The position numbers and the translations under genes were made by a program. From Bacteroidia bacterium (GTDB lineage: Bacteria > Bacteroidota > Bacteroidia > B-17B0 > Aurantibacillaceae), in contig JAEUTQ010000028.1 in assembly GCA_016787445.1 (NCBI GenBank), forward strand, positions 1-64,000: a stretch of DNA of 64,000 bases, given 5' to 3'. Every line of letters starts with the position of its first letter. Positions within the stretch are counted from its first letter, which is position 1. Under the pieces are notes generated by a model. The model worked only from the letters and a program-made list of their open reading frames with translations. It ran no database searches and was not told where the DNA came from. This document shows positions 33,585 through 59,903 of the stretch, piece by piece.

Positions 33585-34793
33585 ATGGCTACAGTATCAA
33601 TAGTTTTAAGAACCGACCGCATTAATAAAAAGGGCGAAGCACCAATCAACTTCTTTGTATTAAAGCACCGAAAATTAAGCAAAATTGCGACCGGCATATT
33701 AATCAATCCCAAGTTTTGGGACGAAAAAAACAAGCGAGTTAAGGGTACACACAAGAGTTCCGGAAGGTTGAACGCCTTCCTTTCAAACAAATTTGCAGAG
33801 CTTAATGATAGTGTCCTGGAGAACGAAACAATTTCAAAATCGTTAACCGTAAAGCAGATTAAAAATAAGATTTACGGTCAGGCGCCAACTAATTTCTTTG
33901 ACTTTGCCAAAGACGTACTTGCCGGATATGAAGCGCAAAAAATGTTTGGCACTTATGACAAGGCGGCCGCCATCGTGAACAAGATGAAAAAGTTTGTTGG
34001 CTCCGAAACACTTTTCATGCAGGAAATAAATGCAGAGTGGTTAACCAAGTATGATAACTACTGCCGCGAAGAATGGGAAAACAAAACGAATACCGTTCAC
34101 AAAGACATGAAGTTTATTCGCAAAGTGTTTAACGATGCTATCCGCATGGATAAAGTGGACATGAAAGACAATCCATTTTTGAAATACAGACTAAAAGTTG
34201 AAAAAACACAACGTACATTTTTATCCGAAGATGAATTGACCGCATTTGCCAAAGTGAAATGTACTCCCGGCACAAGAATGGAATTGCATCAAGATATGTT
34301 TGTATTTGCAGCGCACACCGGTGGCTTACGTGTTTCGGATGTGCTTCAATTGAAGTGGAAGAACATTGATAAAACACATATCAATTTCACCATTCAGAAA
34401 ACAGGTACGCAATTGTCTATTCGGGTTCCTGATAAAGCCATGGCAATAATAGATAAGTACAGAAGCAAAAATCAAAACAAGGAACACTACATTTTTCCGA
34501 TGTTGAGTAATTCTCTGAAAGAAGATGATCTTCGATTGATGGATAGAGAAATTTCCGGAGCCACCGCCTACATCAATAAGAACCTGAAAGAAATTGCAAA
34601 GGCAGCTGAAATAACTAAACCTATCAGCTTCCATATTTCACGCCATACTTTCGCTACCCGGGCACTGCGGAAAGGCATTAGCATCGATAAAGTTTCTAAA
34701 CTCATGGGGCATTCTGCCATTCGCGAAACACAGGTCTATGCAAAAATCGTAAATGAGGAACTGGATAAAGCTATGCTTGTGTTTAATGATTAA
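33585..34793 (+). CDS. Tyrosine recombinase (integrase)
   Basis: About 402 aa from the ATG at 33585; the longer frame opens with TTG and is not needed. It has an N-terminal arm-binding segment (1-90), a SAM-like core-binding domain (about 100-200) and the catalytic domain with R249 (GGLRVSD), H350, R353 (HISRHTF), H376 (GHSAIRETQ) and nucleophile Y385 (VYAKI). All five catalytic residues are present, so it is likely active. It is the first gene after the tRNA fragment, in the position expected for the integrase of the element. It is convergent with the peptidase-like gene, 4 bases apart. Confidence 0.93.
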   Translation: MATVSIVLRTDRINKKGEAPINFFVLKHRKLSKIATGILINPKFWDEKNKRVKGTHKSSGRLNAFLSNKFAELNDSVLENETISKSLTVKQIKNKIYGQAPTNFFDFAKDVLAGYEAQKMFGTYDKAAAIVNKMKKFVGSETLFMQEINAEWLTKYDNYCREEWENKTNTVHKDMKFIRKVFNDAIRMDKVDMKDNPFLKYRLKVEKTQRTFLSEDELTAFAKVKCTPGTRMELHQDMFVFAAHTGGLRVSDVLQLKWKNIDKTHINFTIQKTGTQLSIRVPDKAMAIIDKYRSKNQNKEHYIFPMLSNSLKEDDLRLMDREISGATAYINKNLKEIAKAAEITKPISFHISRHTFATRALRKGISIDKVSKLMGHSAIRETQVYAKIVNEELDKAMLVFND

Positions 34794-43970: not shown

Positions 43971-44171
43971 ATGAATCGTATCAAAGAAGTATTGGAAGAA
44001 AAAGACCTAACTCAAACCTGGTTATCCGAAAAACTCGGCAAGAGTTATAACATGGTTAACTCGTATGTTCAGAACAGAAGACAGCCCAGCATTGAAGTAC
44101 TTTTTGAGATAGCGAAGATTTTGAAGGTGGACCCTAAAGAATTATTAAAAACGAAAGAAAAAATTAAATGA
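43971..44171 (+). CDS. XRE-family HTH regulator of the restriction operon
   Basis: A 66-aa single-domain lambda-repressor-like HTH protein (LTQTWLSEKLGKSYNMVNSY, recognition helix about 25-40). Its TGA overlaps the ATG of hsdM (ATGA), so both are translated as a unit. It probably acts like a C protein or small repressor that sets restriction-modification expression, using the inverted repeat upstream. Confidence 0.88.
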   Translation: MNRIKEVLEEKDLTQTWLSEKLGKSYNMVNSYVQNRRQPSIEVLFEIAKILKVDPKELLKTKEKIK

Positions 44172-45955
44172 GTTTAAATACCCACTCCCTTCAACCTATA
44201 ATCAACTTCCTTTGGACAGTTGCTGATGATGTATTAGTGAATACCTATCAAAAAGGAAAATACAAAGATGTTATTTTGCCAATGGTAGTCATCCGTAGGT
44301 TGGATCTATTATTAGAACCTACAAAGGATAAAGTCCTTTCAACCTTTAAGGAGTATAATAAAAAATTACAAAACCTTGAAAATTTACTTACGAGTAAAAA
44401 GCACGGTACCGGATTGGCATTTTATAATACTTCAAAGTTTACCTTGAAGAAATTATTGGATGATCCGAAAAACCTTAGAAGTAATTTTGAAAATTACCTG
44501 AATGGCTTTTCTGATAACGTGCAGGATATTATCAAGCAATTCAAATTCAGAAATGAAATTGAAACTTTAGCCGATGCAGATATTCTATTTTCATTAATTG
44601 AAAAATTCTGTTCTCCAAAAGTTGAATTACATCCTGATAAATTACCACCATTGGCAATGGGTTATGTTTACGAAGATTTGGTAAGACGTTTCAATGAGGA
44701 AAATAACGAAGAAGCAGGAGAACACTTTACCCCGCGAGAAATTATTGATCTAATGACGCACCTTGTCTTTCTTCCGGTGAAAGATAAAATTAAACAAGGA
44801 ACATATTTGTTTTACGATCCATGTGTTGGTAGTGGCGGGATGTTAACCATTGCAAAGAATTTTATGCAAGATCCTAGCGGATTAATTAAAAGCGATGCAA
44901 CAGTTCATTTGTATGGTCAGGAAAGCACTCCGTTTATTTATGCAACATGTAAAAGCGACATGCTGATTAAAGGAGAAGATCCTGATAAAATTGCTTACGG
45001 CAGTACATTAAGTGCTTATGGATTTGATAAAGATTTGAAGTTCGACTTTATGCTTACCAATCCGCCTTATGGTAAAACCTGGGCACCTGATAAAAAGGCC
45101 TTAAGTGTTGGATCTAAAGGAGCAATCATTGATAAGCGCTTTATGCTAAAAGGCAGCTACAAAGAAGAAGCAGTTACAAGTCGAGTGAATGACGGCCAGT
45201 TAATGTTTGTTTTGCACATGTTAAGCAAGATGAAAGATACTGAACTTGGCAGCCGCATTGCATCCGTTCATAATGGTTCCGCTTTATTTACTGGTGACGC
45301 AGGACAAGGTGAAAGTGAAATTCGTAAACACATTATCGAAAATGATTTACTAGAAGCAATTATTGCTTTACCTCATGACATGTTCTACAATACTGGTATT
45401 CCTACTTACATTTTCTTTATTACAAACAGAAAAAGCAAAAAAAGAAAAGGGAAAGTTCAGTTGATCAATGCAACGTCCGAAAAGTTCTACAGTAAGATGC
45501 GTAAACCTTTGGGCAAAAAAAGAGTTGAGTTTTTACCGGAGCATATTAAGTTGATCGAAACCATGTACCTCAATTTTGAGGAAAATGAATATAGTAGAAT
45601 TTTCGACAATAAGGACTTTGGTTATGCTCAAATTACCGTCAACCGTCCTTTAAAGGATGAAAAAGGCAAAACTGTTTTCGCGAGTAAGGGAAAACCAAAA
45701 CCTGATCCGAAATTAAAGGATACTGAAAACATACCTTTGAAAGAAGATATACAGGAATTCTTTGAACGGGAAGTTTTACCTTTTGCACCTGATGCTTGGT
45801 GGGATAAAAAAGACACCAAAATTGGCTATGAAATAAATTTTGCCAAATACTTCTATAAACACCAACCGCCAAGACCATTGACAGAAATTGCCAAAGACAT
45901 TTTTGCCATTGAGCAGGAAACAGACGGTTTACTAAAAGAGATTATACAAGCATGA
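44168..45955 (+). CDS. hsdM: Type I restriction-modification, DNA methyltransferase subunit
   Basis: A 595-aa N6-adenine methyltransferase. Motif I (S-adenosylmethionine binding) is D217-P-C-V-G-S-G-G-M, motif IV is N298-P-P-Y, and the N-terminal HsdM helical domain is complete (about 1-150). It methylates the target adenines together with HsdS so that host DNA is protected from HsdR. The ATGA overlap with both the regulator and hsdS marks a compact operon. Confidence 0.95.
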   Translation: MSLNTHSLQPIINFLWTVADDVLVNTYQKGKYKDVILPMVVIRRLDLLLEPTKDKVLSTFKEYNKKLQNLENLLTSKKHGTGLAFYNTSKFTLKKLLDDPKNLRSNFENYLNGFSDNVQDIIKQFKFRNEIETLADADILFSLIEKFCSPKVELHPDKLPPLAMGYVYEDLVRRFNEENNEEAGEHFTPREIIDLMTHLVFLPVKDKIKQGTYLFYDPCVGSGGMLTIAKNFMQDPSGLIKSDATVHLYGQESTPFIYATCKSDMLIKGEDPDKIAYGSTLSAYGFDKDLKFDFMLTNPPYGKTWAPDKKALSVGSKGAIIDKRFMLKGSYKEEAVTSRVNDGQLMFVLHMLSKMKDTELGSRIASVHNGSALFTGDAGQGESEIRKHIIENDLLEAIIALPHDMFYNTGIPTYIFFITNRKSKKRKGKVQLINATSEKFYSKMRKPLGKKRVEFLPEHIKLIETMYLNFEENEYSRIFDNKDFGYAQITVNRPLKDEKGKTVFASKGKPKPDPKLKDTENIPLKEDIQEFFEREVLPFAPDAWWDKKDTKIGYEINFAKYFYKHQPPRPLTEIAKDIFAIEQETDGLLKEIIQA

Positions 45956-47217
45956 TAGCAACGGCAATTGAAAATAAGAATACAGCTTGGCTTGGTGAGT
46001 TTCCTTCACATTGGGAAGTGCTTCGAATTAAAAATCTCTTTACGGAAATGGACAGCCGAAGTGAAACAGGCAGCGAGGAACTCCTCTCGGTTTCGCATTA
46101 TACCGGTGTAACTCTTAAAAGGGAAAGCTTGGAAAGTGAAGATGATCATTTAACCAATGCGGAGAGTTTAGTCGGGTATAAATTAGTACAGAATGGTGAT
46201 TTGGTCATCAACATAATGTTAGCATGGAATGGAAGTTTAGGAATTTCGCCTTACAATGGTATTACAAGTCCCGCATATTGCGTTTACCGAATAAAAGGTG
46301 ACAACAACCCCGAGTATTTTGGTTATTTGTTTACGACCAATTTATTTAAAGCGGAGTTTCGTAGGCACAGCACTGGAATTATTGATAGCCGTTTAAGATT
46401 ATACTCCGATAAATTTTTCGCAATCTTTTCAGTGGTTCCCCCCAAAGACGAACAAGACGAAATTGTGCAATACATCAAAGCACAAGAAGATAAGATAAAC
46501 TTGTTTATACAGAAGAAACTAAGGTTTATTGAGTTGTTGAAGGAGCAAAGGCAGAGCGTCATTGATCTAGCAATTACACGAGGAACAAACAGGAATACCA
46601 AACTTGTAGATAGTGGAGAAAAATGGATTGGTAAAATTCCACACAGTTGGCAATTGCGAAAATTGAAATTCTGCGTTTCGCTGAACAGTAACGAAATTCA
46701 GGAAAACGAAATAGATGAAGAAGTTTTTAAAATAGCTCTTGAGAACATTGACAATTGGACTGGGAAATTTATTGACACAGGCAACCCACAATTTGAAGGA
46801 AAAGGAGTTCCATTTAAAGCAGGAGATGTTTTGTTCAATAAGTTAAGGCCTTATCTAGCAAAAGCATTTATTGCTAAATCTTCAGGTTTTTGTGTTGGTG
46901 AATTATTAGTTCTCACTCCAAATGCAGAATACTTCACTAGCGAATTCTTATTTCAACGGCTAATGACTTCTGAATTTATTGATATTGTAAACAGTTCAAC
47001 TTATGGTGCGAAAATGCCAAGAGCAAGTTGGAATTTCATTGGTAATTTGAAAATCCCAATTCCACCTATTGAAGAACAAAAGCAAATTGTATCACACATA
47101 AAAACCGAAACCGCAACTATAGACAAAGCAATAGCTAAAGCCGAACGGGAAATAGAACTGATGAAGGAATACAAAGAGGCCATGATAGCCGAGGCTGTAA
47201 TAGGTGTAACAAAATAA
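45952..47217 (+). CDS. hsdS: Type I restriction-modification, specificity subunit
   Basis: A 421-aa HsdS with two target-recognition domains (about 8-150 and 205-345), each followed by a long conserved helix (QDEIVQYIKAQEDKINLFIQ; EEQKQIVSHIKTETATIDKA). Each TRD reads half of a bipartite DNA target; the sequence cannot be predicted here. IGKIPHSWQLRKLK and LGEFPSHWEVLRIK are the typical TRD starts. It overlaps hsdM by 4 bases. Confidence 0.94.
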   Translation: MIATAIENKNTAWLGEFPSHWEVLRIKNLFTEMDSRSETGSEELLSVSHYTGVTLKRESLESEDDHLTNAESLVGYKLVQNGDLVINIMLAWNGSLGISPYNGITSPAYCVYRIKGDNNPEYFGYLFTTNLFKAEFRRHSTGIIDSRLRLYSDKFFAIFSVVPPKDEQDEIVQYIKAQEDKINLFIQKKLRFIELLKEQRQSVIDLAITRGTNRNTKLVDSGEKWIGKIPHSWQLRKLKFCVSLNSNEIQENEIDEEVFKIALENIDNWTGKFIDTGNPQFEGKGVPFKAGDVLFNKLRPYLAKAFIAKSSGFCVGELLVLTPNAEYFTSEFLFQRLMTSEFIDIVNSSTYGAKMPRASWNFIGNLKIPIPPIEEQKQIVSHIKTETATIDKAIAKAEREIELMKEYKEAMIAEAVIGVTK

Positions 47218-47222
47218 ATGCA

Positions 47223-50200
47223 ATGAAAACAGACACAACTGAAAAAGGTTTAGAAGCACATATTACACAGCACTTGTGTTTGGTGAATGCTTTTGAAGAA
47301 AGGCACTTTAATAATTATAACAGAACAGATTGTGTTGATGAGGATGTGCTTTTCAATTTTCTGCAAAGTACGCAGGAAATGGAAGTAGCAAAGCTACAAA
47401 CTATTCACGGTAGTAATTTTAAAAGCAAATTATTATATCGCATCAACAGCCAAATTAAAACCTTTGGCATTATTGAAGTTTTACGTAAAGGGATTACGGA
47501 TAACAACATAAAACTCAAACTCTTTTTTGATAAACCCGTATCAAATTTAAATGAAGAAGATTTAGCGCTTTACAATAAAAATTTTTTTTCGGTAACTCGC
47601 CAAGTCCACTACAGCAATCAAAATGAAAATTCCTTAGACCTTGTTGTATTCATTAATGGCTTACCAATAATTACTTTTGAATTAAAAAACGAACTCACCA
47701 AGCAAACAGTAAAAGATGCCATCAAGCAATACAAAAATAATCGTGATCCAAAGGAAGAATTATTTCGGTTAGGTCGATGTCTAGTTCATTTTGCTATTGA
47801 TTCGGAACAAGTTTGGATGACTACCCATTTAAAGGGTGAAAGCACGTATTTTTTACCGTTCAACAGAGGTTATAATAACGGAGCAGGTAATCCGCCAAAC
47901 CCAAATGGAATTAAAACAGATTATCTCTGGAAGGAAATTTTAACTAAGGATCGTTTAACTAACATCATTCAAAATTACGTTCAGTTATTTGAAGAAGAAA
48001 CTGAGAAAATATTGCCTGATGGAAAAATAAAGAAGGAAAATGTTAAAAAACTAATCTTCCCAAGGTATCACCAAATTGATGCGGTTGACCAGCTTTTAGC
48101 TAATGCCAAAACAAATGGTGCCGGGCGTAGATATTTAATTCAGCATTCGGCTGGTTCCGGGAAATCCAATTCTATTTCTTGGCTGGCGCATCAGTTAGTA
48201 GGCTTATTTGACAATACAAATTCACATACGGTATTTGATACTGTAATTGTTGTAACCGATCGTAAAGTACTGGATGCACAAATCCGTAATAATATCAAGC
48301 AATTTGAACAAGTAAAGGGAGTTGTTGAAGCCATTACTGAGGGAAGCAAACAACTAAAAACTGCATTAGAAGAAGGAAAAAAGATCATCATTACCACTAT
48401 TCAGAAGTTCCCTTACATTGTAAATGAAATCGGAGACTTACCGGGTAATAAATTCGCTATTATCATTGATGAAGCCCACAGTAGTCAAAGTGGCAACACA
48501 GCAGGAAAGCTAAATGAAACATTAGCCAAGGAATTTGAAAAAGTCCAAGTTGATGGTGATGAATATATCTATGTTGAGAAAGACCAATATGATGAATTAA
48601 CTTCGGAAGATTTGGTAGTGGATATTGTTAAGGGTAGAAAGATGTTGCCAAATGCGAGTTATTTTGCTTTTACAGCCACTCCAAAGAACAAAACACTTGA
48701 ATTGTTTGGTGAGAAATTTAATGACGGTGGCAAAGAGAAATTCAAGGCATTTCATCTTTACTCAATGAAACAAGCAATAGAAGAAAACTTCATTTTGGAT
48801 GTATTGCAAAATTATACAACCTACCAAAGCTATTATGCCTTGTTAAAGAAGATTGAAGATGATCCTGCTTATGATAAAGTAAAAGCACAGAAGAAGCTCA
48901 GAATATTCGTTGAAAGCCATGAGCATGCTATTACAAAAAAGACGGCACTCATTATTGATCACTTCATGGATAGTGTAATGCGTAAAGCAAAAATCAATGG
49001 ATTGGCAAAAGCAATGATTGTTACAAGCAGTCGCAAAAATGCAGTAAAATATAAAAAGGCATTCGATAAATATTTAGCTGAAACGGGTAATCCATATAAA
49101 GCAATTGTAGCATTCTCAGGTGAAATTGATGGACAAACCGAAGCAGCCTTAAATCATTTTTCAAGCGCGGCCATCCCCGATGAGTTCAAAAAATCAGAGT
49201 ATCGTTTTTTAATTGTTGCAAGCAAATTTCAGACAGGATTTGATCAACCTCTTCTGCATACCATGTATGTAGATAAAAAATTAGGTGGTGTAAATGCAGT
49301 ACAAACATTATCACGTTTAAACAGAACTACGGCCGGGAAGAAGGATACCTTTGTTTTGGACTTTGCCAATGATGCTGATGAAATTAAACGATCATTCGAT
49401 CCGTTTTATGAAACAACAATTTTGGGCGAAGCAACTGATCCTAACAAACTTTTTGACCTACAAAGTTCATTAGATGCCTTTCAGGTTTATACCCCCGAAC
49501 AAGTACAGGAATTTTCAGAAAAACTCGTTTCTAATGTTCCGGTAGATGAATTACACAGTATACTGGATGCAGCAGCAGAGGTTTTCAGAACTGCGCTAAC
49601 CGAAGAACAGCAAGACGATTTCAGAGCAAAATGCAAAACCTATGTCCGGTTGTATGTATTCCTTGCTCAAATTGTACCATTCGTGAACCCATATTTGGAA
49701 AGGCTCTATTTATTTCTGAATCATTTACAAAATAAGTTAGGTAAAAAACGAGATGAGGATTTAGCTCAGGGTATTTTAGATAATATCGATATGGATAGTT
49801 ATCGCTTGCAAAAAGAGGGAGAATTTAATATTAAGTTAGAGCAAGGAGATGAATTGAAGCCAATACCAACCGATATGAAGGGAGGCGCAGCTGAACCGGA
49901 AATGGAGTACTTGTCTAATATAGTAAAGGCGTTCAATGATAGATTTGGGACAACTTTTACTAACGAAGATAAGGTTCGCAAAATGACAGCCGAACTTATG
50001 CGAGATGTAACGGATGATAAGGCAGCCATGGACAATATAAACGCCTCACTTCAAAAGCAAGACTTCCAAAACGCTGAAATAACCTTTACCGACATTTTAA
50101 AGGAGAAAATGATAAATCACATTGATAGTAATTTTGAAGTATTCAAAGAGTATAATGATAACCCTGAGTTCCGTTCCTTCTTAGCTGGGCAGCTATTTAA

Positions 50201-50240
50201 AATAATGCTTCAAGATTTTAGAAACGTATATAGGAAATAG
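47223..50240 (+). CDS. hsdR: Type I restriction enzyme, endonuclease/translocase subunit
   Basis: A 1005-aa HsdR. The N-terminal nuclease has D139 and E153-L-K155 (PD-(D/E)xK). Two helicase lobes follow: Walker A GSGKS at 311-315, DEAH at 416-419, and FAFTATPKNKTLELFGE. The C-terminal HsdR_C-like region binds the methylase core. It cuts unmethylated DNA after ATP-driven translocation. Complete and close in length to characterised HsdR proteins. It begins 5 bases after hsdS. Confidence 0.95.
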   Translation: MKTDTTEKGLEAHITQHLCLVNAFEERHFNNYNRTDCVDEDVLFNFLQSTQEMEVAKLQTIHGSNFKSKLLYRINSQIKTFGIIEVLRKGITDNNIKLKLFFDKPVSNLNEEDLALYNKNFFSVTRQVHYSNQNENSLDLVVFINGLPIITFELKNELTKQTVKDAIKQYKNNRDPKEELFRLGRCLVHFAIDSEQVWMTTHLKGESTYFLPFNRGYNNGAGNPPNPNGIKTDYLWKEILTKDRLTNIIQNYVQLFEEETEKILPDGKIKKENVKKLIFPRYHQIDAVDQLLANAKTNGAGRRYLIQHSAGSGKSNSISWLAHQLVGLFDNTNSHTVFDTVIVVTDRKVLDAQIRNNIKQFEQVKGVVEAITEGSKQLKTALEEGKKIIITTIQKFPYIVNEIGDLPGNKFAIIIDEAHSSQSGNTAGKLNETLAKEFEKVQVDGDEYIYVEKDQYDELTSEDLVVDIVKGRKMLPNASYFAFTATPKNKTLELFGEKFNDGGKEKFKAFHLYSMKQAIEENFILDVLQNYTTYQSYYALLKKIEDDPAYDKVKAQKKLRIFVESHEHAITKKTALIIDHFMDSVMRKAKINGLAKAMIVTSSRKNAVKYKKAFDKYLAETGNPYKAIVAFSGEIDGQTEAALNHFSSAAIPDEFKKSEYRFLIVASKFQTGFDQPLLHTMYVDKKLGGVNAVQTLSRLNRTTAGKKDTFVLDFANDADEIKRSFDPFYETTILGEATDPNKLFDLQSSLDAFQVYTPEQVQEFSEKLVSNVPVDELHSILDAAAEVFRTALTEEQQDDFRAKCKTYVRLYVFLAQIVPFVNPYLERLYLFLNHLQNKLGKKRDEDLAQGILDNIDMDSYRLQKEGEFNIKLEQGDELKPIPTDMKGGAAEPEMEYLSNIVKAFNDRFGTTFTNEDKVRKMTAELMRDVTDDKAAMDNINASLQKQDFQNAEITFTDILKEKMINHIDSNFEVFKEYNDNPEFRSFLAGQLFKIMLQDFRNVYRK

Positions 50241-50251
50241 ATTTTGTTTTA

Positions 50252-52339
50252 ATGGATGCTAGCCTTTTTATAGATCTTGTCAAACAATTTGATGCAATCT
50301 CAATTATTGAGAAAGATGTCACTACACCGACTGAAAAGAGTAATGGCCTGTTAGTCGTTGAAGTAACGTACAACGTAAATGGCAAATCTTATACGACACA
50401 AAAGCTCTATTACAAAGATATTACAAGCCTTGATCGTATTGATAATAAGCAAGCACTAATCGATTATTTTGGGAGTCCAATCTATTGGTTGGATTTAGAC
50501 CACCATGATTGGCCACAAGGTGCTGGGGAAAGTGATTTAGAAAAAATAGTAATCCCGGAAATTGCCTCGAAAGGCGACACAGAATTTATTACTTTCTTAA
50601 CTTCTCTTGCCAACAATAAGCAAACAGGACTAATTCAGCAGATCACTGCTGATGGTCGTTCTGCACAGTATTACCACAATCTTGAAAATAATAATCATTG
50701 GCATGATTTAATTGTTCTAATTAAAGCCTTTATTAATTCAGGTGGCGAGGAAATAGATAAAAAATATTTTTCAAGATTAATTTTTAATTGGTCAGGAGAT
50801 AAAAACACACAGCGTGCTCGTGCAACACTTACAAATAAGGCCTTTCCATGTAGTCGAAAAATCATAGAAGAATTAAAGAAGAATATTAAAAGCATAAAAT
50901 CTGAAATCATGAAATCAGAAGTGATCGAATTATTAAAGCAGAAAAAGCAAATCATTTTACAAGGTCCTCCAGGTACCGGTAAAACAAGATTGGCAAAAGA
51001 ATTAGCAGCGGAGTTATGCTCCGATTTTTTGTTACAAGAATCACATCGAAATCAAATCAACTCTATTTTAACTACTGGATTAACAATAAATACTGTTGAA
51101 GGAAGTCCATTTTTAATTGAAAGTGCAGAAAACGGTAGTTATAAATTGAAAATAGGAGCTGGCACTGCACCTTACTCAATAACTACTGATCAAATTATAA
51201 AAGTTGATAACGAACCTACAGGCGGTATCTCCGGTAAAAGTTATGCTAGAGGTTTGGCTGCATATGTGAAACCAAAAATTGCAGAGCAAAACATTGAATT
51301 GATTCAATTTCATCCTGCATATTCCTATGAAGATTTTGTGAGAGGTATTTCAATAAAAACAGAAGATGGTGTGCCAAATTATTTTTCTGAGAACAAGACG
51401 TTAGGACTTTTAGCAGCTAAAGCATTGGCTAATTATGAGAAAAGCCAAATGAAAACGACAGAACTATCGAAAGAATATTGGGTGGAAAATAAATTTGATG
51501 AGTTTAAATTCTTTCTGGAAAGTGATTTAGAAATTACAGGTCCTTTACAATTAACAGAGAGCGTTAAATTAAAAAAAATCGAAGATGATGCTTTTAGATA
51601 CAGTGGTTCTGACTGGGGCAATTCATCAAGAATAAATTTCAAGGATTTTATAAAATTAGCAATTCATAACCTCGAAAGACAGGGTGATATTGAAATAACA
51701 AAAGAACTTTCGCTTCACGCGTTTTATCGTAAAACATATTATACGGCATTACTAGACCACTTTTATGATAAGGCAGGCCAATATACTCCAACGATCAACG
51801 CTGTTGAGCCCCTTAAAAACTATGTTCTTATTATCGATGAAATTAATAGAGCAAATTTACCAAGTGTTTTGGGTGAATTAATTTATGCCCTTGAATACAG
51901 AGGTGAACCTGTAAAAAGTATTTACAAAATTGCTGATGATGGTTCATTAGTTTTACCTCCAAACCTTTTAATCATCGGAACAATGAATACGGCCGACAGA
52001 AGTGTTGGTCATATTGATTATGCTATACGCAGAAGGTTTGCATTCGTTGAAGTATTGCCATCAGATGAAGTAATTGATCAAGTGGTTACAGATGCAGCAT
52101 TAAAGCAAAAATCTAAAACATTATATTCTTCAATTGCATCTCTATTTACCAAAGACAAAATCGCCTCTGATTTTAATGCAAAAGATGTTCAATTAGGTCA
52201 CAGCTATTTTCTTGCTCAAACAGAACCTGAGTTAAGACGAAAATTAGAATTTGAAATTAAACCAATACTTCGCGAATATTTGAAGGATGGTATTTTACTA
52301 AACGAAACAGCTTCTGAAATAGAAAAATTGAGTGTATAA
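50252..52339 (+). CDS. mcrB: McrB-like GTPase/AAA subunit of a methyl-dependent restriction system
   Basis: A 695-aa protein. The AAA+ domain has Walker A GPPGTGKT (238-245), Walker B/sensor LIIDEINRAN (D529, E530) and the McrB signature GTMNTADRSV (N579 in it) with HIDYAIRRRFAF. The N-terminal 220 residues should read modified DNA but differ from the E. coli McrB domain. It starts 11 bases after hsdR and overlaps mcrC by 8, so type I and McrBC form one transcription unit. It drives cleavage of methylated foreign DNA together with McrC. Confidence 0.9.
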   Translation: MDASLFIDLVKQFDAISIIEKDVTTPTEKSNGLLVVEVTYNVNGKSYTTQKLYYKDITSLDRIDNKQALIDYFGSPIYWLDLDHHDWPQGAGESDLEKIVIPEIASKGDTEFITFLTSLANNKQTGLIQQITADGRSAQYYHNLENNNHWHDLIVLIKAFINSGGEEIDKKYFSRLIFNWSGDKNTQRARATLTNKAFPCSRKIIEELKKNIKSIKSEIMKSEVIELLKQKKQIILQGPPGTGKTRLAKELAAELCSDFLLQESHRNQINSILTTGLTINTVEGSPFLIESAENGSYKLKIGAGTAPYSITTDQIIKVDNEPTGGISGKSYARGLAAYVKPKIAEQNIELIQFHPAYSYEDFVRGISIKTEDGVPNYFSENKTLGLLAAKALANYEKSQMKTTELSKEYWVENKFDEFKFFLESDLEITGPLQLTESVKLKKIEDDAFRYSGSDWGNSSRINFKDFIKLAIHNLERQGDIEITKELSLHAFYRKTYYTALLDHFYDKAGQYTPTINAVEPLKNYVLIIDEINRANLPSVLGELIYALEYRGEPVKSIYKIADDGSLVLPPNLLIIGTMNTADRSVGHIDYAIRRRFAFVEVLPSDEVIDQVVTDAALKQKSKTLYSSIASLFTKDKIASDFNAKDVQLGHSYFLAQTEPELRRKLEFEIKPILREYLKDGILLNETASEIEKLSV

Positions 52340-53609
52340 TCTTGTAAAATATAAAGAACACTTTTGCGGAGAAATTCCGCTTGATTCCTTACAAATATCG
52401 GGTGAGCATGAATTTTATTTCCCTAAGAGGCGTGAAAATTCAAGATACAAATGTGTTGGTATTTATCCTGGAGAGACAAGCTGCCGGGTAGAGTTATCAT
52501 ACTTCATAGGCGTTGATTGGATCAGCAAAAATCAACCCATTTACATTGAACCAAAGTTAAATTCCGGTAGCAATCAAACCAATTATCTTAAAATGCTCTT
52601 TGAGTCGTTAAGGTTTCAAGAGGCAAGTGAATCCCTATCTGAATTATTTCTGATAAAGTTTGATGAAGAGCATATTGAAATAGATCAGAAAGACGATTTG
52701 CTTACACCCTTATTAATTGTCCAATTCCTTCAATTGGTAAAAGCAATTGTTCGTAAAGGAGTGAAAAAGTCATATTATAAAGTTGAGCAAAACATTCATA
52801 GTAGAGTAAAAGGAAAAATTCAAGTATCAAAAACCATTAAATTAAACCATTCTAAAAGTAAGTTATTAGATACTTATTGTTCCTTTGAACAGTTTGGAGT
52901 GAATGGAATTGAAAATCGCTTGATTAAAAAGGCTTTACTATTTACACAAAAATTCTTGCCTACATTAAGATCATTCAACTCGGACAAATACACAATAGAA
53001 GCGTTTAATTACATCATGCCTGCCTTTGAGCATGTTACTGATGAGGTAAATCTAAATGAAATCAAATTCAGTAAAGCAAATGCTTTCTACAGGGAGTATG
53101 AGTCAGCCATTAAGTTAGCTAAACTAATTTTAAAAAGATTTGGTTATAATATTTCAAACACCCAAAAAGATGGAAAAATTAAAACACCTCCTTTTTGGAT
53201 TGACATGTCTTTACTGTTTGAATTATATGTATTAGGGCTACTGAAAGAAAAATATGGCAATGCTATCAGCTACCAGGAAAAAGCGAATTATGGTTACCTT
53301 GATTTTATGCTTAATGACCCTGATTCAAAAATAGTGATAGATGCAAAATACAAGCCTCAGTATTCGAACGAATATATCATTGATGATATCCGTCAGATCA
53401 GCGGTTATTGTCGCGATAAACGAATCCTAAACAAAATGGGGTATTTGCCACCAGATTACAATAAAACTGTCTTAAAAGGCCTTATTATTTATCCTGATGG
53501 CGAATATTTAGACAAAGATCAGAAAGAAACGATAATGATAGAGAAAGTCGAACCAATAGAAGAATTTGTTGAATTATACAAGATGAAGGTACGGCTTCCG
53601 GCTTTGTAA
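52332..53609 (+). CDS. mcrC: McrC-like nuclease subunit
   Basis: A 425-aa endonuclease subunit that starts with GTG at 52332, inside the end of mcrB (8-base overlap). The PD-(D/E)xK active site is D324 (LDFML) with D337-A-K339 (IVIDAKYKP). The N-terminal half is the McrC-specific beta region that contacts the McrB hexamer. It lies 119 bases upstream of the sigma factor gene of the Argonaute operon. Confidence 0.9.
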   Translation: MYNLVKYKEHFCGEIPLDSLQISGEHEFYFPKRRENSRYKCVGIYPGETSCRVELSYFIGVDWISKNQPIYIEPKLNSGSNQTNYLKMLFESLRFQEASESLSELFLIKFDEEHIEIDQKDDLLTPLLIVQFLQLVKAIVRKGVKKSYYKVEQNIHSRVKGKIQVSKTIKLNHSKSKLLDTYCSFEQFGVNGIENRLIKKALLFTQKFLPTLRSFNSDKYTIEAFNYIMPAFEHVTDEVNLNEIKFSKANAFYREYESAIKLAKLILKRFGYNISNTQKDGKIKTPPFWIDMSLLFELYVLGLLKEKYGNAISYQEKANYGYLDFMLNDPDSKIVIDAKYKPQYSNEYIIDDIRQISGYCRDKRILNKMGYLPPDYNKTVLKGLIIYPDGEYLDKDQKETIMIEKVEPIEEFVELYKMKVRLPAL

Positions 53610-53728
53610 CCTGAAAGCATAGATAAATGTATTATCAGTACCTCATGATTACAAATACTATTGCAAATCAATTAGTTATGATTATTGTAACCCGTTTTCA
53701 TATATATAGTTAGAGAGAAGTTCAAGAA

Positions 53729-54343
53729 ATGAAATACAACGAGATCATACAGTTAATTGATGCCAGGGATAAGAAGGGATGGGAAGCTCTTTATATATTG
53801 TATGGTAAAAAGTTTTACGGCTTTGCGGTAGATAAGTGGTTGTTTTCAGAAGATGAAGCCTGGGACATCGTTTATCAGACACTTGAAACAATTGTCCTTA
53901 AAATAGGAGAATATGAGATTGAATCGCAATCGCATTTTGACAATTTGATCTATAAGATATTTACCAATTTCCTTCGGCAGTTTTATAGAAAAAAGAAAGT
54001 GAAATCCGAGCAAGTGCAATTACTTCCTTTAAAAGAGATGGATATTTACGAAGGTATTGAAGAAGATGAAGGGTGGAATGATTCAAACATTAAAGTTCCT
54101 TTTAACGAAGAGTTTTTTAATGACAATGAAACCGAAATCTCAGAAAACCCGAATCTCAATTTATTGTCAATAGCACTGAGTAAATTAACTCCTTTAGAAA
54201 GGGATTTACTCTTATTGAAAGCGAATGATTTTACCTATGATGAAATTGCAAAAATGCTGAAAATTGAAAACAATCAGTTAAAGGTTAAACATCATCGGGC
54301 AAAACGAAAATTATTACAAATACTACAATCAGAACAAAAATAA
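53729..54343 (+). CDS. ECF-like RNA polymerase sigma factor
   Basis: A 204-aa sigma-70-family factor. Region 2 (about 10-95; FYGFAVDKWLFSEDEAWDIV, the -10-binding and polymerase-contact part) and region 4 (about 150-204; LSKLTPLERDLLLLKA and YDEIAKMLKIENNQLKVKHH, an HTH for the -35) are present; region 3 is missing, as in ECF factors. An acidic linker lies between. It heads the six-gene Argonaute operon, 5 bases before the 198-aa gene. It may switch on the operon or defence genes. Bacteroidota house-keeping sigma is not like this. Confidence 0.85.
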   Translation: MKYNEIIQLIDARDKKGWEALYILYGKKFYGFAVDKWLFSEDEAWDIVYQTLETIVLKIGEYEIESQSHFDNLIYKIFTNFLRQFYRKKKVKSEQVQLLPLKEMDIYEGIEEDEGWNDSNIKVPFNEEFFNDNETEISENPNLNLLSIALSKLTPLERDLLLLKANDFTYDEIAKMLKIENNQLKVKHHRAKRKLLQILQSEQK

Positions 54344-54348
54344 TAGCT

Positions 54349-54945
54349 ATGAAAAATCAAAATAAAAAAATGGATCCTGTAGATGAAGCGCTAAAGCTTT
54401 TGATGCTTTCTGAAAATTCAGGGGATGCAAAAGCTATTGACACTTCTGACCAGTTGAATTATATTACAACTGCCATCTACAGTAAAGAACTTTCAGATGA
54501 AGGTGCTAAAAAAATGATCGGTAAACTCTATGAAAACTTAGCAGTTGATTCATTAGGAGTATTAATTGAAAATGCTTTAGCTAAGGTTAATCCGGATATT
54601 AATGCAATTGCTGGTAAAACCAACTTGCCGGAAAATAGCATTGAGCAACTGAAATCAGACGCGATATTCGCCAACAGTATTCCTGTTATATCATTAAGGA
54701 ATCTGTTAAAGGAATTGCAAATTCCCTTTGAGAAAGCGGAACAGGCAATTTTAAAATCATTCCATATTTTAAAGAGTGACCTTGCCTTCTCTGCATCTTC
54801 AATGAGCAATTTGCGTTTGGCGTATCGTAGAAGAAATTCAAAATTGTCTTCAAATACAAAATCAGGAAAATCTGATAGTCAGTATTTGTTTGAAAATGAA
54901 GAAGCACTTTCAAAATATTTGAAAAGATTAAGCGAACTCTATTAA
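54349..54945 (+). CDS. Small helical protein, possible sigma partner
   Basis: A 198-aa soluble protein of unknown family. Helices fill it except for a basic, Ser-rich region (about 155-175, YRRRNSKLSSNTKSGKS). A central block ISLRNLLKELQIPFEKAEQAI looks like a small helical domain. No membrane span or zinc-binding anti-sigma motif (HxxxCxxC) is visible. Because it sits directly after the sigma factor gene, I suspect an anti-sigma-like or protease-substrate role; this is inference. Confidence 0.6.
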   Translation: MKNQNKKMDPVDEALKLLMLSENSGDAKAIDTSDQLNYITTAIYSKELSDEGAKKMIGKLYENLAVDSLGVLIENALAKVNPDINAIAGKTNLPENSIEQLKSDAIFANSIPVISLRNLLKELQIPFEKAEQAILKSFHILKSDLAFSASSMSNLRLAYRRRNSKLSSNTKSGKSDSQYLFENEEALSKYLKRLSELY

Positions 54946-54957
54946 ATAAGTAAAACG

Positions 54958-55983
54958 ATGAGAGGTAATAAACTTGAATGGTCATTTTCTGCACTTAGTA
55001 CACTTCGCAAGTGTAATAGGATGTACTATTTCCAGTATTTAACACCATCTCATCATTTTACTCATCCTTTTAGAAGGAAGGCTCACGAGTTGAAGAAATC
55101 TAAAAATCTTCTGATGTGGCGCGGTTCCATTATTGATAAAATAATGGAAATAGAAATCATGCCATTGATAAAAGAAAAGAAAGATATTGACTTTGAACAG
55201 GTAACTACGAATGCTGTAGAATTGGCAAAAAGACAATTTAAGTTTTCCGAACAAAAGCTGTATCGCATTAAAGAGAACTCAGAAAGTAAAGTAGGCAATG
55301 ATTATTGCATTCTTGACATACACGAAGCAAATGTTCCATATACGGAAGAACAATTGCAGAACGTGTATGATTCTGTGAAGCAAATTATCATAGGTATTCC
55401 TGAAATCAAAATGCCCAATGGAGAAACAGTACTTACCTTCTTAAAAAAGGCATCTTTTATTGTGCCAAACTTAAGGGGCTGGAGCTTTGAATTTGAAAAT
55501 ATTAGAATTAGTCCGCAAATTGACTTATTCATGTTTGTCGAAAATAAAGCGGTCGTACTTGACTGGAAAGTTTCTGAAAGTGCAGTGAGCGATTATTCAA
55601 GACAGTTGGTAATGGGAGGTATTACAGTAATGGATACCTACCGTAAAAAATCAGAAGCCGGAACTGGTAAACGATTAACCTTTTCCGATATCAGGCTTTT
55701 AGAAGTTAATTTATTTAAGAAATCTGCGGTTGAACACAGCTTTAATAAAGAAGTGGTGAACGAGTGTGTCGATTATATTTATTTGAATAGCGAAGACATT
55801 GAATTATTGACAGAAGGAAAATCGTTTGATCAATTAAACATTGAGGATTTCCCAATAACAGATAAAGAAGGGACATGCTTTTTTTGCAAGTTTCGCCCAT
55901 TATGTGCACACATTTTAACGAATAAAAATCAATACCATGAAGAGACATACTACAACTCTTTTCAAGCTGAACAACCTGCATAA
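54958..55983 (+). CDS. Cas4/RecB-like PD-(D/E)xK nuclease with Fe-S cysteines
   Basis: A 341-aa exonuclease-type protein. C19 (RKCNRMYYFQYL) and C307, C310, C316 (CFFCKFRPLCAH, CX2CX5C) match the four cysteines of Cas4/AddB-type 4Fe-4S clusters. The active site is D189 (PQIDLF) with D202-W-K204 (VLDWKVSE), and SRQLVMGGITVMDTY fits motif IV (QxxxY). It is thus likely an active nuclease of the Cas4 type. Its end overlaps the Argonaute reading frame by 47 bases, showing tight coupling. It may make or trim DNA guides. Confidence 0.88.
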   Translation: MRGNKLEWSFSALSTLRKCNRMYYFQYLTPSHHFTHPFRRKAHELKKSKNLLMWRGSIIDKIMEIEIMPLIKEKKDIDFEQVTTNAVELAKRQFKFSEQKLYRIKENSESKVGNDYCILDIHEANVPYTEEQLQNVYDSVKQIIIGIPEIKMPNGETVLTFLKKASFIVPNLRGWSFEFENIRISPQIDLFMFVENKAVVLDWKVSESAVSDYSRQLVMGGITVMDTYRKKSEAGTGKRLTFSDIRLLEVNLFKKSAVEHSFNKEVVNECVDYIYLNSEDIELLTEGKSFDQLNIEDFPITDKEGTCFFCKFRPLCAHILTNKNQYHEETYYNSFQAEQPA

Positions 55984-58324
55984 TTTAAAATTCCCTTTTA
56001 AATTAATGCAATTGGAACTTCAAGAAATTGAAAATGATCCGGCTTTAAATAATAGAAACATTCAGAAGGTGCTAATGAAATTGGCATCAGAAACTTCTGG
56101 ACCTGTTGCCCTTTATTATAAGGACGGAATTAAGTATGTAGCAGTAAAGGCAGATACAACAGTAGAAAGTAAAGAAATTCATCTTTCTCCAATGATTGCT
56201 AAGGTGACGCTTCTAAAAGATGTCTATGAATTAAATTTTGATGCCCTAACCGCTGAAAACCGAGAGTTGGCCGTTAGATTTTTGGAATTTTCAATCAAGG
56301 AGCACGTTGGGAATCACCCGAAACTTTGGAGATACTCAAGTAACCAATATTTTTTACGTAAACCGATCTTTCAGGAACCATATTCGAATATTGACGTTTA
56401 TAGTGGTTTTACTTTTAAAGTTATTCCTCAGCCTGATGGCAATTTCTATATCGGATTGGACTTATCATATAAATATACCGATAAGAAATTCCTTCACGAA
56501 CATTTAAAGGGAAGCGACTTGACAGTATTAAAAAAGCGATTTAAAGGGAAAAGATGTTTATATTTTGGAGGCGACAGTTGGTATCCGGTTCAAATTGCAG
56601 ATTTCGGAAAGGCAATTAAGGAGCAGGAGTTTTCTTTAAATGGTAAAAAACATACCGTTTACAATTGGGCTTTGAACAACACCAAGTCTGAAACTTTTAA
56701 CATGCAAAAGCATTTGTTTCCCGATTCACCAGCACTAATCTTTAATTATCCGGGAAATACATCCAAATATTTTAATGGTGCAGCCTGTCTTGCGAAGTTT
56801 TTACATACCACCTCTGATAATTTTGTTAACGGGATGCATAATAAGACAATTCAGATACCTGGTAGTAGATTTCATTATTTGAAGGGGTTTGTAAAACATA
56901 ATTTACAAGGGATAAATTTCAATGGCGTTACTTTGGATATTTCGCTATATCCGTTAAAAGAAACTCTTAAAGTATTCCCTTTACCAGGTTTGAAATTTAA
57001 TAAAGGTCAGGAAATTAAAGCCGTTCCAATTTCTGAAAAATATGAAAGCCTTGTTGATGGTTTCGGAAAAAACAGACGAGTGAATATTTTAAGAAACGGA
57101 ATTTTAAATACATCCCAGTTCGGCCCACAATATTTATTGGTACCTGATTCGGTTGACTTCCGTCTTGCCAAAGCAATTCAGGAGTGTTTCACGAAAGATC
57201 TCAAAATTATTGCTCCGAACTTTGATAAGTTTGAACTTGTAATTTACAAAGATCTGAAAGGTACTAGTGCGCTAAAGCAATACAACGAAATTAAAGCTAC
57301 ATTACAGAAGCATAATGCTACCCACGGTTCTGCTATTTTTCTTTTACCAGAGGTAGATGATGATATTACAGGATACATAAGAAATCTGCATGATTGTGTA
57401 AAAAAGAAATTTTATAAGAACATAAGATTTCAGTGTGCCTCGGTTTCAAAAGTGGCTTCTTTTTTCAGAAGTTTCACAAATAAAGATTCTGGTTATGAAT
57501 TTCGCTTGACTCAGGATAAATTGAAAGCGTACAGATCATATAGCAGTAATTTATTTTTTGAGTATTTAATTGTCAATCAGAAATGGCCCTATGCTTTAAC
57601 TCAAGCGTTGAACCATGATATTTATATAGGGCTGGACGTTCATGATCATTATGCCGGTTTCATTTTCTTCTACAAAAATGGAGAAAAAATAGTGTTTGAT
57701 TACAAAGAGGTTTCGGATAGGACTGGTACGTTCCGTAATGAAAAAATTAGTGCGAAGGTCATCATTGAAGTTTTATTAAGCAATTTGAAAAGGCACATTC
57801 CTTCACATGCTGTAAATCCCAATAGTATCGTTTTATTACGTGATGGAAGAAGTTTTGGAGAAGAGGGCAAGGCAATGCGTGCAGTCATTGAGGAATTAGC
57901 AACAGCTAATCTAATTGATAAGAGCAAAGTTAAGTGGGGAATAGTTGACGTACATAAGAATACAGCTATACCGTATAGGGCGGCAATTGATAATGGAGGG
58001 TACAACGGCCTAACAAATCCATTGGCTGGTACATATAAGCTTTTTGATGAGAAAAGTGGATTTCTATTTAACACCGGCTTTCCATTTAAAGTTCCGGGAA
58101 CGGTACAGCCCATTTACGTCTCGTTAATAGAAGGTGATGTTCACTTTGAAACAGTAATGCAGGATATTTTTCATCAATGTATTTTAGCCTTTTCTGCTCC
58201 TGACAAAGGAGGTTCTTTACCAGTTGTACTTAAACTGATTGATACGATGATTAGACCATTTGCACATCAAGTAACTGAAAAATTATTGGAAGAGCAAGAG
58301 GAAACATTAGCGACATTAAACTAA
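55937..58324 (+). CDS. Long prokaryotic Argonaute with predicted catalytic tetrad
   Basis: A 795-aa pAgo, a guide-directed nuclease. Order: N domain (about 1-110), L1/PAZ region (about 140-330, FKVIPQPDGNFYIGLDLSY), MID (about 400-540) and PIWI (about 555-795). The DEDX tetrad is readable: D567 (YIGLDVHDH), E602 (glutamate finger), D636 (LLRDGRS) and H777 (RPFAHQ). Spacing D-E 35 and D-D 69 is within one residue of TtAgo (34 and 68), and His in the last place is as in human AGO2. Candidate 5'-phosphate contacts H485, K489, Q499 are less sure. The next ATG (56006) would shorten the N-terminus by 23 residues. Confidence 0.92.
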   Translation: MKRHTTTLFKLNNLHNLKFPFKLMQLELQEIENDPALNNRNIQKVLMKLASETSGPVALYYKDGIKYVAVKADTTVESKEIHLSPMIAKVTLLKDVYELNFDALTAENRELAVRFLEFSIKEHVGNHPKLWRYSSNQYFLRKPIFQEPYSNIDVYSGFTFKVIPQPDGNFYIGLDLSYKYTDKKFLHEHLKGSDLTVLKKRFKGKRCLYFGGDSWYPVQIADFGKAIKEQEFSLNGKKHTVYNWALNNTKSETFNMQKHLFPDSPALIFNYPGNTSKYFNGAACLAKFLHTTSDNFVNGMHNKTIQIPGSRFHYLKGFVKHNLQGINFNGVTLDISLYPLKETLKVFPLPGLKFNKGQEIKAVPISEKYESLVDGFGKNRRVNILRNGILNTSQFGPQYLLVPDSVDFRLAKAIQECFTKDLKIIAPNFDKFELVIYKDLKGTSALKQYNEIKATLQKHNATHGSAIFLLPEVDDDITGYIRNLHDCVKKKFYKNIRFQCASVSKVASFFRSFTNKDSGYEFRLTQDKLKAYRSYSSNLFFEYLIVNQKWPYALTQALNHDIYIGLDVHDHYAGFIFFYKNGEKIVFDYKEVSDRTGTFRNEKISAKVIIEVLLSNLKRHIPSHAVNPNSIVLLRDGRSFGEEGKAMRAVIEELATANLIDKSKVKWGIVDVHKNTAIPYRAAIDNGGYNGLTNPLAGTYKLFDEKSGFLFNTGFPFKVPGTVQPIYVSLIEGDVHFETVMQDIFHQCILAFSAPDKGGSLPVVLKLIDTMIRPFAHQVTEKLLEEQEETLATLN

Positions 58325-58335
58325 AAAAACTAACC

Positions 58336-58779
58336 ATGAGCGAAATATCTTTAATAACAAAACGGTATGATGATATTGTTGATTTTACTTCTAAAGTCAA
58401 TAAATCCGTAATCGTATTCAAGAAAAAAACTCTCTTGAATGAAAGGGGTATTTCTGATAAATACCCAAAACTGAAACTTAAACAAGAAGAAGTTGACAAA
58501 GCGGAAGCTGAACTTTTAGACTCTTTATTGCAACTTGAGCAATTGGCAAAGGAAACCGAATATAGCAATAAGCTTACTGGTTTATCTGAAAGCTCTGTAC
58601 TGCGGCAAATGGTATTTAATAACGAAACGGATAGAAAGGAAATTGAATCGATAATTCAAAATTTAAAAGAACATAAACCGTTTGAAAAATTTCACTTTGT
58701 AATGCTTGATAAAATCATCTCAGCATTAGATAACGAAAGAAATTTATTATTCAGAAAACTACGCACTGCAAGAGGATGA
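58336..58779 (+). CDS. Coiled-coil protein of the Argonaute operon
   Basis: A 147-aa hydrophilic helical protein with a long coiled coil (about 40-80, KQEEVDKAEAELLDSLLQLE) and no known domain. It starts 11 bases after the Argonaute gene, and its stop codon overlaps the start of the metallopeptidase gene (ATGA). It is a plausible substrate, inhibitor or scaffold for the metallopeptidase or for Argonaute. I know no homolog. Confidence 0.6.
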   Translation: MSEISLITKRYDDIVDFTSKVNKSVIVFKKKTLLNERGISDKYPKLKLKQEEVDKAEAELLDSLLQLEQLAKETEYSNKLTGLSESSVLRQMVFNNETDRKEIESIIQNLKEHKPFEKFHFVMLDKIISALDNERNLLFRKLRTARG

Positions 58780-59903
58780 TTTCATTTATAAATGGGCTAT
58801 ATTATGATTTAGATTGCCGGGTAACTCGGATGATAGATGCATTAAATTCAAAAACGCATCATCCGGATATTCAAAAAAGTTTTGTTCCAAAAACTTTAGA
58901 ATATCTTGACACACTCAAAAGTCATTTGAATATAATTCTTCAGTCAGGTGATTTAGATATTGACATACTTGCCAATAATAATTTATACCAGTTTAATGAG
59001 TTGAATGAAGCTTTTCAGACAATTGAATTATACAGATACGAAGTAATTGAAAATTATGATGGTCCTGAAATATATTTCAGTAAAAAGATTGCCCGGATTT
59101 ATAATGAAATCAGAAATCTTTCCATTCCTCCAATCATTACAACAATAAGTAATTCTGAAAATTATTATTGGGCACACCCGGTTTTTGAAATAATCGCAGT
59201 TCCTTACGGTGAAGAAAACAACTTATTGAATTTGCCTGATTTGTTTCATGAAATAGGTCACTTGATTTGTAAACAATATCCGAACATTGTTGATAGTAAA
59301 TTCGTTCCTTCGCTTGATAAATATTTTAAAGATGAAATAGATAGATCATACGATGAAAAGACGCATGAACATTATGTTCCATTCTATACTGAAAAATTAA
59401 GTAAATGGAAGGATTATTGGATTGAAGAATTTACGTGTGATCTTATCGCTACTTTTCTTTGTGGTCCGGCATTTGCTAACGCAAACATGAAGATGTCTGC
59501 CTTAAGTAATGGCAGCAGTGCAATTTATGCAGACTCTCCAAGTCACCCATCTGACGAAGCAAGAATGCGGGCTGTTTTTTTGATGTTAGATAAGTTAGGT
59601 TTCAATAATGAATGCGCGAAAATTAAAGCCGACTGGGAATTATTCTTACACCATACAAATAATCCTAAACATCCCGATTATAAATTTATTTTTCCGAACG
59701 ATCTTCTTGCTGAGTTAACAGAAATAGTTTATGATTACTGTGTTGGAATTGATCTAGCATCATATAATGAGCAACTTAAAAATCATAAAGAACCAATTTC
59801 TAAGCATATTAATGATGCATGGAATTTGTTGCACTCTAAGCCGAAAGAATTTGAAGATTGGCAAAAGAAAATAATAGATCAGATTTCAAAGGAAATATCA
59901 TAA
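58776..59903 (+). CDS. HEIGH zinc metallopeptidase of the Argonaute operon
   Basis: A 375-aa soluble protein. H158-E-I-G-H162 (LFHEIGHLI) is a zinc-protease motif; the likely third ligand is E217 or E218 in WIEEFTCDL, 56 residues later, as in gluzincin-like ImmA/IrrE or related peptidases. A conserved-looking HPSDEARMRAVFL follows. Such proteases cleave repressors or partner proteins in phage and stress responses. It overlaps the coiled-coil gene by 4 bases and closes the operon. The target may be the 198-aa or the 147-aa protein; not shown by sequence. Confidence 0.75.
   Translation: MISFINGLYYDLDCRVTRMIDALNSKTHHPDIQKSFVPKTLEYLDTLKSHLNIILQSGDLDIDILANNNLYQFNELNEAFQTIELYRYEVIENYDGPEIYFSKKIARIYNEIRNLSIPPIITTISNSENYYWAHPVFEIIAVPYGEENNLLNLPDLFHEIGHLICKQYPNIVDSKFVPSLDKYFKDEIDRSYDEKTHEHYVPFYTEKLSKWKDYWIEEFTCDLIATFLCGPAFANANMKMSALSNGSSAIYADSPSHPSDEARMRAVFLMLDKLGFNNECAKIKADWELFLHHTNNPKHPDYKFIFPNDLLAELTEIVYDYCVGIDLASYNEQLKNHKEPISKHINDAWNLLHSKPKEFEDWQKKIIDQISKEIS

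Follow-up and report, generated by a model that had tools for sequence, protein, structure and literature searches.

A PnyAgo-group Argonaute operon of a Bacteroidia bacterium with a conserved zinc peptidase and a candidate self-inducing sigma switch

According to the main-text passages of PMC9360449, DNA-guided, RNA-cutting (D-R) prokaryotic Argonautes (pAgos) form two groups, and operons of the PnyAgo group encode a Cas4-related nuclease and a sigma-70 factor, those of the PliAgo group a nuclease and a helix-turn-helix (HTH) regulator. The six-gene operon described here lies on the plus strand (53729-59903) of a 64,000-nucleotide stretch of a Bacteroidia genome (assembly GCA_016787445.1, contig JAEUTQ010000028.1, positions 1 to 64,000; hereafter the window). 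It resembles the PnyAgo and HpeAgo operons in its pAgo group (a DEDD tetrad with a His after the first Asp), in the Cas4-related nuclease gene preceding the pAgo gene and in the sigma-70 factor. As far as these passages go, a pAgo with a nuclease and a sigma factor is thus already described and not new. The initial annotation of the window knew of no described system that adds a sigma factor and a metallopeptidase to a pAgo; the former part of this statement has to be withdrawn, and as to the latter, no peptidase is reported with pAgo operons in the searched text of PMC9360449 and PMC6299218 or in the open-licence literature searched. The main-text passages of PMC9360449 name only nuclease and sigma factor and leave unmentioned the peptidase with the small gene before it, the XRE-fold gene 2 and the operon-specific cis-element, and a pAgo-free four-gene set likewise goes beyond them. 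We tentatively read the locus, on sequence, structure models and analogy, as an inducible PnyAgo-type defense operon in which the peptidase would cut the gene 2 protein and free the sigma factor, which would then switch on its own operon.

Three further kinds of systems are comparable. Operons of the PliAgo/RslAgo group begin with an HTH regulator and share the order of nuclease, pAgo, small protein and HEXXH peptidase; in place of sigma factor, gene 2 and the TGTAACC element described below, they carry an XRE repressor and palindromes. In CapH-CapP, ImmR-ImmA and DdrO-PprI/IrrE, an XRE-fold protein is encoded with a HEXXH metallopeptidase, and CapH regulates an immune operon. CapH, ImmR and DdrO are substrates of metallopeptidases. 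The cutting of the XRE proteins CapH and DdrO by CapP and PprI is triggered by single-stranded DNA (ssDNA) (PMC10904395). The present operon differs from these pairs by the additional sigma factor, by peptidase motifs that are M48-like and not ImmA/IrrE-like, and by a pAgo as payload. Finally, type III-E Craspase with Csx30-RpoE (PMC9729208) and type III CalpL/T/S (PMC11417357) resemble it in that RNA is recognized by means of a guide and that a protease, an extracytoplasmic function (ECF) sigma factor and a small protein which is a proven or candidate sigma binder are encoded together. They use a CRISPR guide module and a CHAT or Lon protease, whereas the window encodes an Argonaute and a HEXXH zinc peptidase, and its candidate inhibitor has an XRE fold.

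Gene content and conservation of the operon

All six open reading frames (ORFs) proposed initially were confirmed, exactly in their coordinates, strand and spacing (in order, a gap of 5, a gap of 12, an overlap of 47, a gap of 11 and an overlap of 4 bases). The features are as follows, with protein lengths in amino acids (aa).

53605..53621, plus strand: promoter-like element copy 1, TGTAACCTGAAAGCATA, exact match, overlapping the mcrC stop codon
53686..53702, plus strand: promoter-like element copy 2, TGTAACCCGTTTTCATA, 43 bases upstream of the start codon of the sigma gene
53729..54343, plus strand: gene 1, ECF-type sigma-70 factor, 204 aa (TIGR02937, Sigma70_r4_2), kept in 12 six-gene and 2 pAgo-free loci
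54349..54945, plus strand: gene 2, diverged XRE/Cro-type HTH protein, 198 aa (hhalign, model and structural comparison)
54958..55983, plus strand: gene 3, Cas4-like PD-(D/E)XK nuclease in which four cysteines are conserved, 341 aa (PADLOC, PDDEXK_1)
55937..58324, plus strand: gene 4, PnyAgo-group long pAgo whose catalytic tetrad is intact, 795 aa (PADLOC, phmmer)
58336..58779, plus strand: gene 5, small protein of helical/coiled-coil type, 147 aa (alignment; homologues also in 18 other loci)
58776..59903, plus strand: gene 6, HEXXH zinc peptidase, probably an M48-like gluzincin, 375 aa (invariant residues, model)

The proposed identities of sigma factor, Cas4-like nuclease and pAgo were borne out by profile searches. 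Gene 1 matches TIGR02937 above cut-off (52.8 bits versus 42.9, 3.4e-14) and Sigma70_r4_2 (8e-9), gene 3 matches the PADLOC profile Aga_Cas4-like_Nuc (1e-54) and PDDEXK_1 (3e-8), and gene 4 matches PADLOC pAgo_II (E=0) as well as PDB entries 8xih (8e-186) and 7r8k (3e-45) by phmmer. Family and PADLOC profile searches gave no family above cut-off for genes 2, 5 and 6. The DEDH tetrad first assigned to the pAgo is ruled out by the alignment, which gives DEDD (D567/E602/D636/D769), a tetrad kept in all 20 aligned pAgos. Because the window pAgo has a His two residues past the first catalytic Asp (LDVHD, PnyAgo type), and not a Lys as in the PliAgo group (IDVK in loci L013, L044, L048 and L054), it is assigned to the PnyAgo group of DNA-guided, RNA-cutting pAgos, guided cleavage being predicted here from sequence. 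The pAgos of L015 and L052 have their tetrad at positions 563/598/632/765, which are the published PnyAgo numbers, and could be PnyAgo itself or a protein very closely related to it.

Iterative hidden Markov model (HMM) searches from the window over the fetched loci retrieved the identical six genes in identical order in 12 loci (the window, L001, L002, L003, L015, L016, L043, L045, L046, L047, L051 and L052), with pAgo identities of 26-81%. The earlier view of the genes as one functional unit, for which co-occurrence in close pAgo homologs was looked for, is upheld by these loci. The nuclease is invariant across them at D189, D202-x-K204 and the cysteines C19, C307, C310 and C316. The six-gene operons occur on chromosomes, on plasmids (for example L043 of Emticicia and L051 of Spirosoma) and in a region resembling an integrative and conjugative element, while the genes outside the six vary from locus to locus. 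The set thus moves between bacteria as a whole. Mean identity per gene is 27-38%, and all pairwise distance correlations across the 12 loci fall between 0.75 and 0.93, which reflects common descent of the set, as judged from sequence distances, and not interaction. Partial distance correlations are highest for Cas4-pAgo (0.56), followed by sigma-pAgo (0.52) and gene 2-peptidase (0.49).

Among 395 genomes of the class, the 5 with a strong peptidase match are exactly the 5 with a substantial pAgo match, and of the 18 genomes with a strong peptidase match over all searches, 16 have it adjoining a D-R-type pAgo. In the other two (G506, locus L050, and G507, locus L049) the peptidase stands with the sigma factor, gene 2 and gene 5, and nuclease and pAgo are absent. 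Sigma factor, HTH protein, small protein and peptidase therefore also exist as a pAgo-free four-gene set. Gene 2 is present in 9 of 222 genomes of the family, all 9 with the peptidase. The XRE-type operons (L013, L044, L048, L054, L017 and L055) retain nuclease, pAgo and peptidase, as does the cyanobacterial plasmid L012, where no regulator was found. A small gene lies between pAgo and peptidase in these loci, and the gene 5 profile matches it in L012, L044, L048 and L054. The peptidase and its preceding small gene are thus common to PliAgo-group operons as well, the regulator being exchanged between an XRE protein and a sigma factor with an XRE-like partner.

Two observations concern individual loci. 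In L049 (12426-15886) and L050 (12294-15700), the pAgo-free module is followed by a convergent caspase-like (Peptidase_C14) gene and a hydrolase-like gene, and the upstream genes differ; module and following genes are possibly a separate mobile defense cassette. In L017 (6805-12000) and L055 (7117-12324), pAgos with IDVS at the first Asp are encoded with an XRE regulator, a nuclease, a small ORF and the same peptidase family. These pAgos fall outside both published D-R groups and could form a third one.

Candidate components of a regulatory switch

Gene 2, at first noted only as a helical protein, is present as proposed, and its identity can now be refined. It comprises an N-terminal extension, an HTH region (about 66-135), a disordered linker (about 154-174) and, at the C-terminus, a helix (184-197) in which Y190 and L194 are invariant. 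Its model reaches a predicted local distance difference test (pLDDT) value of about 83-88 for most of the stretch 70-140 but is weak elsewhere. The top rows of the structural comparison are dominated by XRE/Cro HTH domains, the best being CapH (7t5u, Z 7.8, root-mean-square deviation 1.9 over 65 aligned residues), followed among others by ImmR (7t8i, Z 7.1) and DdrO (6rnx, Z 7.1). Structural Z values under 8 were taken as weak unless backed by profile comparison. Alignment by hhalign to the XRE regulators of the sister operons scored 34.8 (P 4.3e-5), compared with at most 17.6 for 200 column-shuffled decoys, 17.8 for gene 1 and 14.6 for gene 5. Since this comparison exceeds all decoys, beside XRE-dominated structural matches, gene 2 is assigned from profile and model as a diverged XRE-fold protein that takes the place of the XRE regulator of PliAgo-group operons. 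Its recognition-helix region is not basic in any of 14 sequences. A profile search of solved-structure sequences returned nothing for gene 2, and weak single-member Pfam matches (for example ydhR) were treated as noise. By analogy with CapH, ImmR and DdrO, the protein is a candidate sigma inhibitor and a candidate peptidase substrate, with the linker as the putative cut site.

The HEXXH enzyme is the only peptidase among the six genes, in which no CHAT or Lon match was found. It carries the motifs HEIGH (158-162), E218, D222 and H257-P258-x4-R263; H158, E159, H162, E218, D222, H257, P258 and R263 are invariant in 23 peptidase sequences, and its model has a pLDDT of 93. The host's own M48 peptidase (HEIAH..ESEAD..THPSDETR) and E. 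coli BepA (HEISH..EQEAD..THPLPESR) show the same motif order with similar spacing. BepA also appears among the structural matches (Z 7.7 over 165 and 7.0 over 172 aligned residues), amid unrelated helical rows. These motifs suggest that gene 6 is probably an M48-like gluzincin. Filing it as M48 outright was rejected, as the motif fits but the profile stays below cut-off and hhalign aligned only 13 columns. An ImmA/IrrE identity was not detected: family searches gave no match, and hhalign to one ImmA-like protein gave P 0.068. A profile search of solved-structure sequences with the peptidase returned only helical proteins, mostly designed ones. Gene 5, which has homologues in 18 further loci, directly precedes the peptidase gene and usually overlaps it, and its product is a candidate partner of the peptidase.

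Distant relatives of the peptidase are encoded in a three-gene set of a small protein, a HELGHF peptidase and a dCTP deaminase-like protein (L056:7270-9392, L057:8146-10253 and L058:6942-9048), which is a candidate defense operon. The relative in L056 scores 14.8 bits against the M48 profile (cut-off 20.3). Near this set in L058 (9057-13344), a pair of XRE and ImmA-like genes lies beside ubiquitin-like, JAB and E1-like genes.

A TGTAACC-N6-CAT element with at most one mismatch precedes the sigma gene in all 12 six-gene operons, compared with a mean of 0.1 and a maximum of 2 loci in shuffled regions. Column statistics delimit the blocks TGTAACC and [GT]CATA, followed at a distance of 18 bases by TA-x-A, a weaker block. 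The window holds two copies (0.11 expected), as does L001, whose upstream copy has one mismatch. In 12 whole genomes the strict pattern TGTAACCYNNWWKCATW has 10 exact matches, all at the operon (2 for the reversed-pattern control), one of them inside the sigma gene and one oriented toward a divergent operon that lies 50 bases from it. In the host genome, a looser form matches 5 times (reversed control, 3), twice at the operon and three times at other sites, which share no gene set. A wider regulon was rejected on these results, the strict form having no match away from the operon in the 12 genomes. The element fits an autoregulated sigma promoter with its own operon as the only target, its reading by the sigma factor being predicted from sequence. 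XRE-type loci carry palindromes instead (TTTGCTTGA-N4-TCAAGCAAA in L054, TTGAGTTG-N5-CAACTCAA in L017 and L055), and no such palindrome was found before gene 1 in the window.

Some operons carry additional copies of the element. In Spirosoma (L010:5682-5747, equivalent to L051:11270-11335), a second TGTAACC element points in the opposite direction, toward a divergent multiubiquitin-ThiF-DUF6527 operon, and the same ubiquitin-like genes lie beside the pAgo operon of Runella (L014). The sigma coding sequence of L052 contains, about 98 bases in, an extra exact copy (G712:C24:38925-38941); at the corresponding position, L015 has a copy with two mismatches.

Proposed mechanism and alternatives

In the reading that we tentatively prefer, the operon would be a mobile, inducible anti-invader unit of PnyAgo type, whose payload is a DNA-guided, RNA-cutting Argonaute and a Cas4-like nuclease that may serve in guide making or in the degradation of invader DNA. 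At rest, the XRE-fold gene 2 protein would restrain the ECF sigma factor. When infection is signaled, which could be by target-bound pAgo or, as for CapP and PprI, by ssDNA, the HEXXH peptidase, aided or restrained by the gene 5 protein, would cut gene 2, probably in its disordered linker, and the freed sigma factor would transcribe its own operon from the TGTAACC-N6-CAT element, leading to more pAgo and nuclease. PliAgo-group operons would fill the same role without a sigma factor, by means of an XRE repressor that binds DNA at palindromic operators. The initial annotation had suggested guided interference wired to a proteolysis-driven transcription response. Its protease-plus-sigma part gains from the XRE-fold partner, the autoregulatory-looking element and the conserved peptidase, whereas the link of guided interference to a transcription response is only partly borne out: since the element is found only at the operon in 12 genomes, any response would probably be self-induction of the operon rather than a wider program.

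The more specific proposal that binding of target RNA by the DNA-guided pAgo activates the peptidase, which would then cut an XRE-fold anti-sigma factor and free the ECF sigma factor, appears rather doubtful. If true, it would represent an independent, non-CRISPR invention of the guided nuclease-protease-sigma circuit of Craspase and CalpL/T/S, and the anti-sigma factor would have evolved from an XRE repressor. The existence of the pAgo-free module suggests that the protease-sigma wiring has some independence from the pAgo. To our knowledge, the biological role of DNA-guided, RNA-cutting Argonautes is open; these Argonautes now gain a defined gene set of nuclease, pAgo, small protein and zinc peptidase with one of two interchangeable regulators, and a testable on-switch and a specific DNA element are proposed for them. 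If the pAgo is the trigger, proteolysis and transcription would come under the control of guided RNA recognition outside CRISPR; otherwise, the module would still be an undescribed proteolysis-type regulator of defense genes in which a sigma factor replaces a repressor.

Several observations weigh against the proposed switch. The TGTAACC-to-CAT block is not a standard -35/-10 pair, and the TA-x-A block 18 bases on, which fits the distance, is only marginal. The loci L049 and L050 have sigma factor, gene 2 and peptidase but lack the element. The model of gene 2 is of moderate confidence (mean pLDDT 70). For the peptidase, Foldseek gave no significant match, only unrelated helical proteins, and Pfam gave no M48 match above cut-off, one of 12 members reaching E 0.011. 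Moreover, the known cutters of XRE proteins are of ImmA/IrrE type, and no relation of the peptidase to that family was detected.

Other explanations must be weighed on the same loci. An unlikely though by no means far-fetched one makes the peptidase the effector: on target recognition by the pAgo it would degrade host proteins and stop growth (abortive infection), with gene 5 as inhibitor or activator and with sigma factor and gene 2 only setting expression. Two findings speak for it: PliAgo-group operons, which have the other regulator, and the cyanobacterial plasmid locus, where no regulator was found, both retain the peptidase and its preceding small gene, and in the distant relatives L056-L058 the peptidase is likewise immediately preceded by a small gene, next to one for a dCTP deaminase-like protein. 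However, peptidase, sigma factor and gene 2 stay together in the pAgo-free L049 and L050, gene 2 is always accompanied by the peptidase among the 222 family genomes, and the gene 2-peptidase pair ranks third among the partial distance correlations. These two pAgo-free loci also bear on the idea that peptidase and gene 5 mature or turn over the pAgo or the Cas4-like nuclease and are not regulatory. Conservation of the peptidase with nuclease and pAgo in all D-R pAgo types would agree with such a function, but its retention in L049 and L050 without either of them makes it very improbable.

The same loci also speak for regarding sigma factor, gene 2, gene 5 and peptidase as a self-contained stress switch, for example an ssDNA-sensing one like CapP/CapH, with pAgo and nuclease as mere payload and not trigger, a distinctly unlikely explanation overall. 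The activation of CapP and PprI by ssDNA (PMC10904395) agrees with it, and so does the position of Cas4 and pAgo together in mid-operon like an insertable pair, with the highest partial correlation. On the other hand, the pAgo-free form is known from two genomes of one genus only, elsewhere the close peptidase family adjoins a pAgo, and the neighboring caspase-like gene of L049 and L050 may serve there as sensor or effector. In those two loci a self-contained switch or another sensor is favored, since the switch is retained there without the pAgo. Finally, a chance cluster of unrelated genes could be imagined from the surroundings, as the window region is a defense island (type I restriction-modification, McrBC, an integrase gene) where unrelated genes accumulate; this was ruled out by the same six genes in fixed order in 12 loci with differing outside neighbors, and its probability is practically negligible.

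Genomic setting

Directly upstream of the operon, the window contains a type I restriction-modification system (44168-50240) and McrBC (50252-53609), and farther upstream an integrase-like gene (33564-34793), the integrase and type I genes being identified from their translations without a family search. This segment is a defense island, and it is probably mobile. A virus origin was rejected: phage records yielded no relative of the pAgo or of the peptidase, and viral contigs none of the pAgo. The related locus L001 is surrounded by mobilization and integrase-like genes, and L010, L011, L012, L013 and L014 are plasmids.

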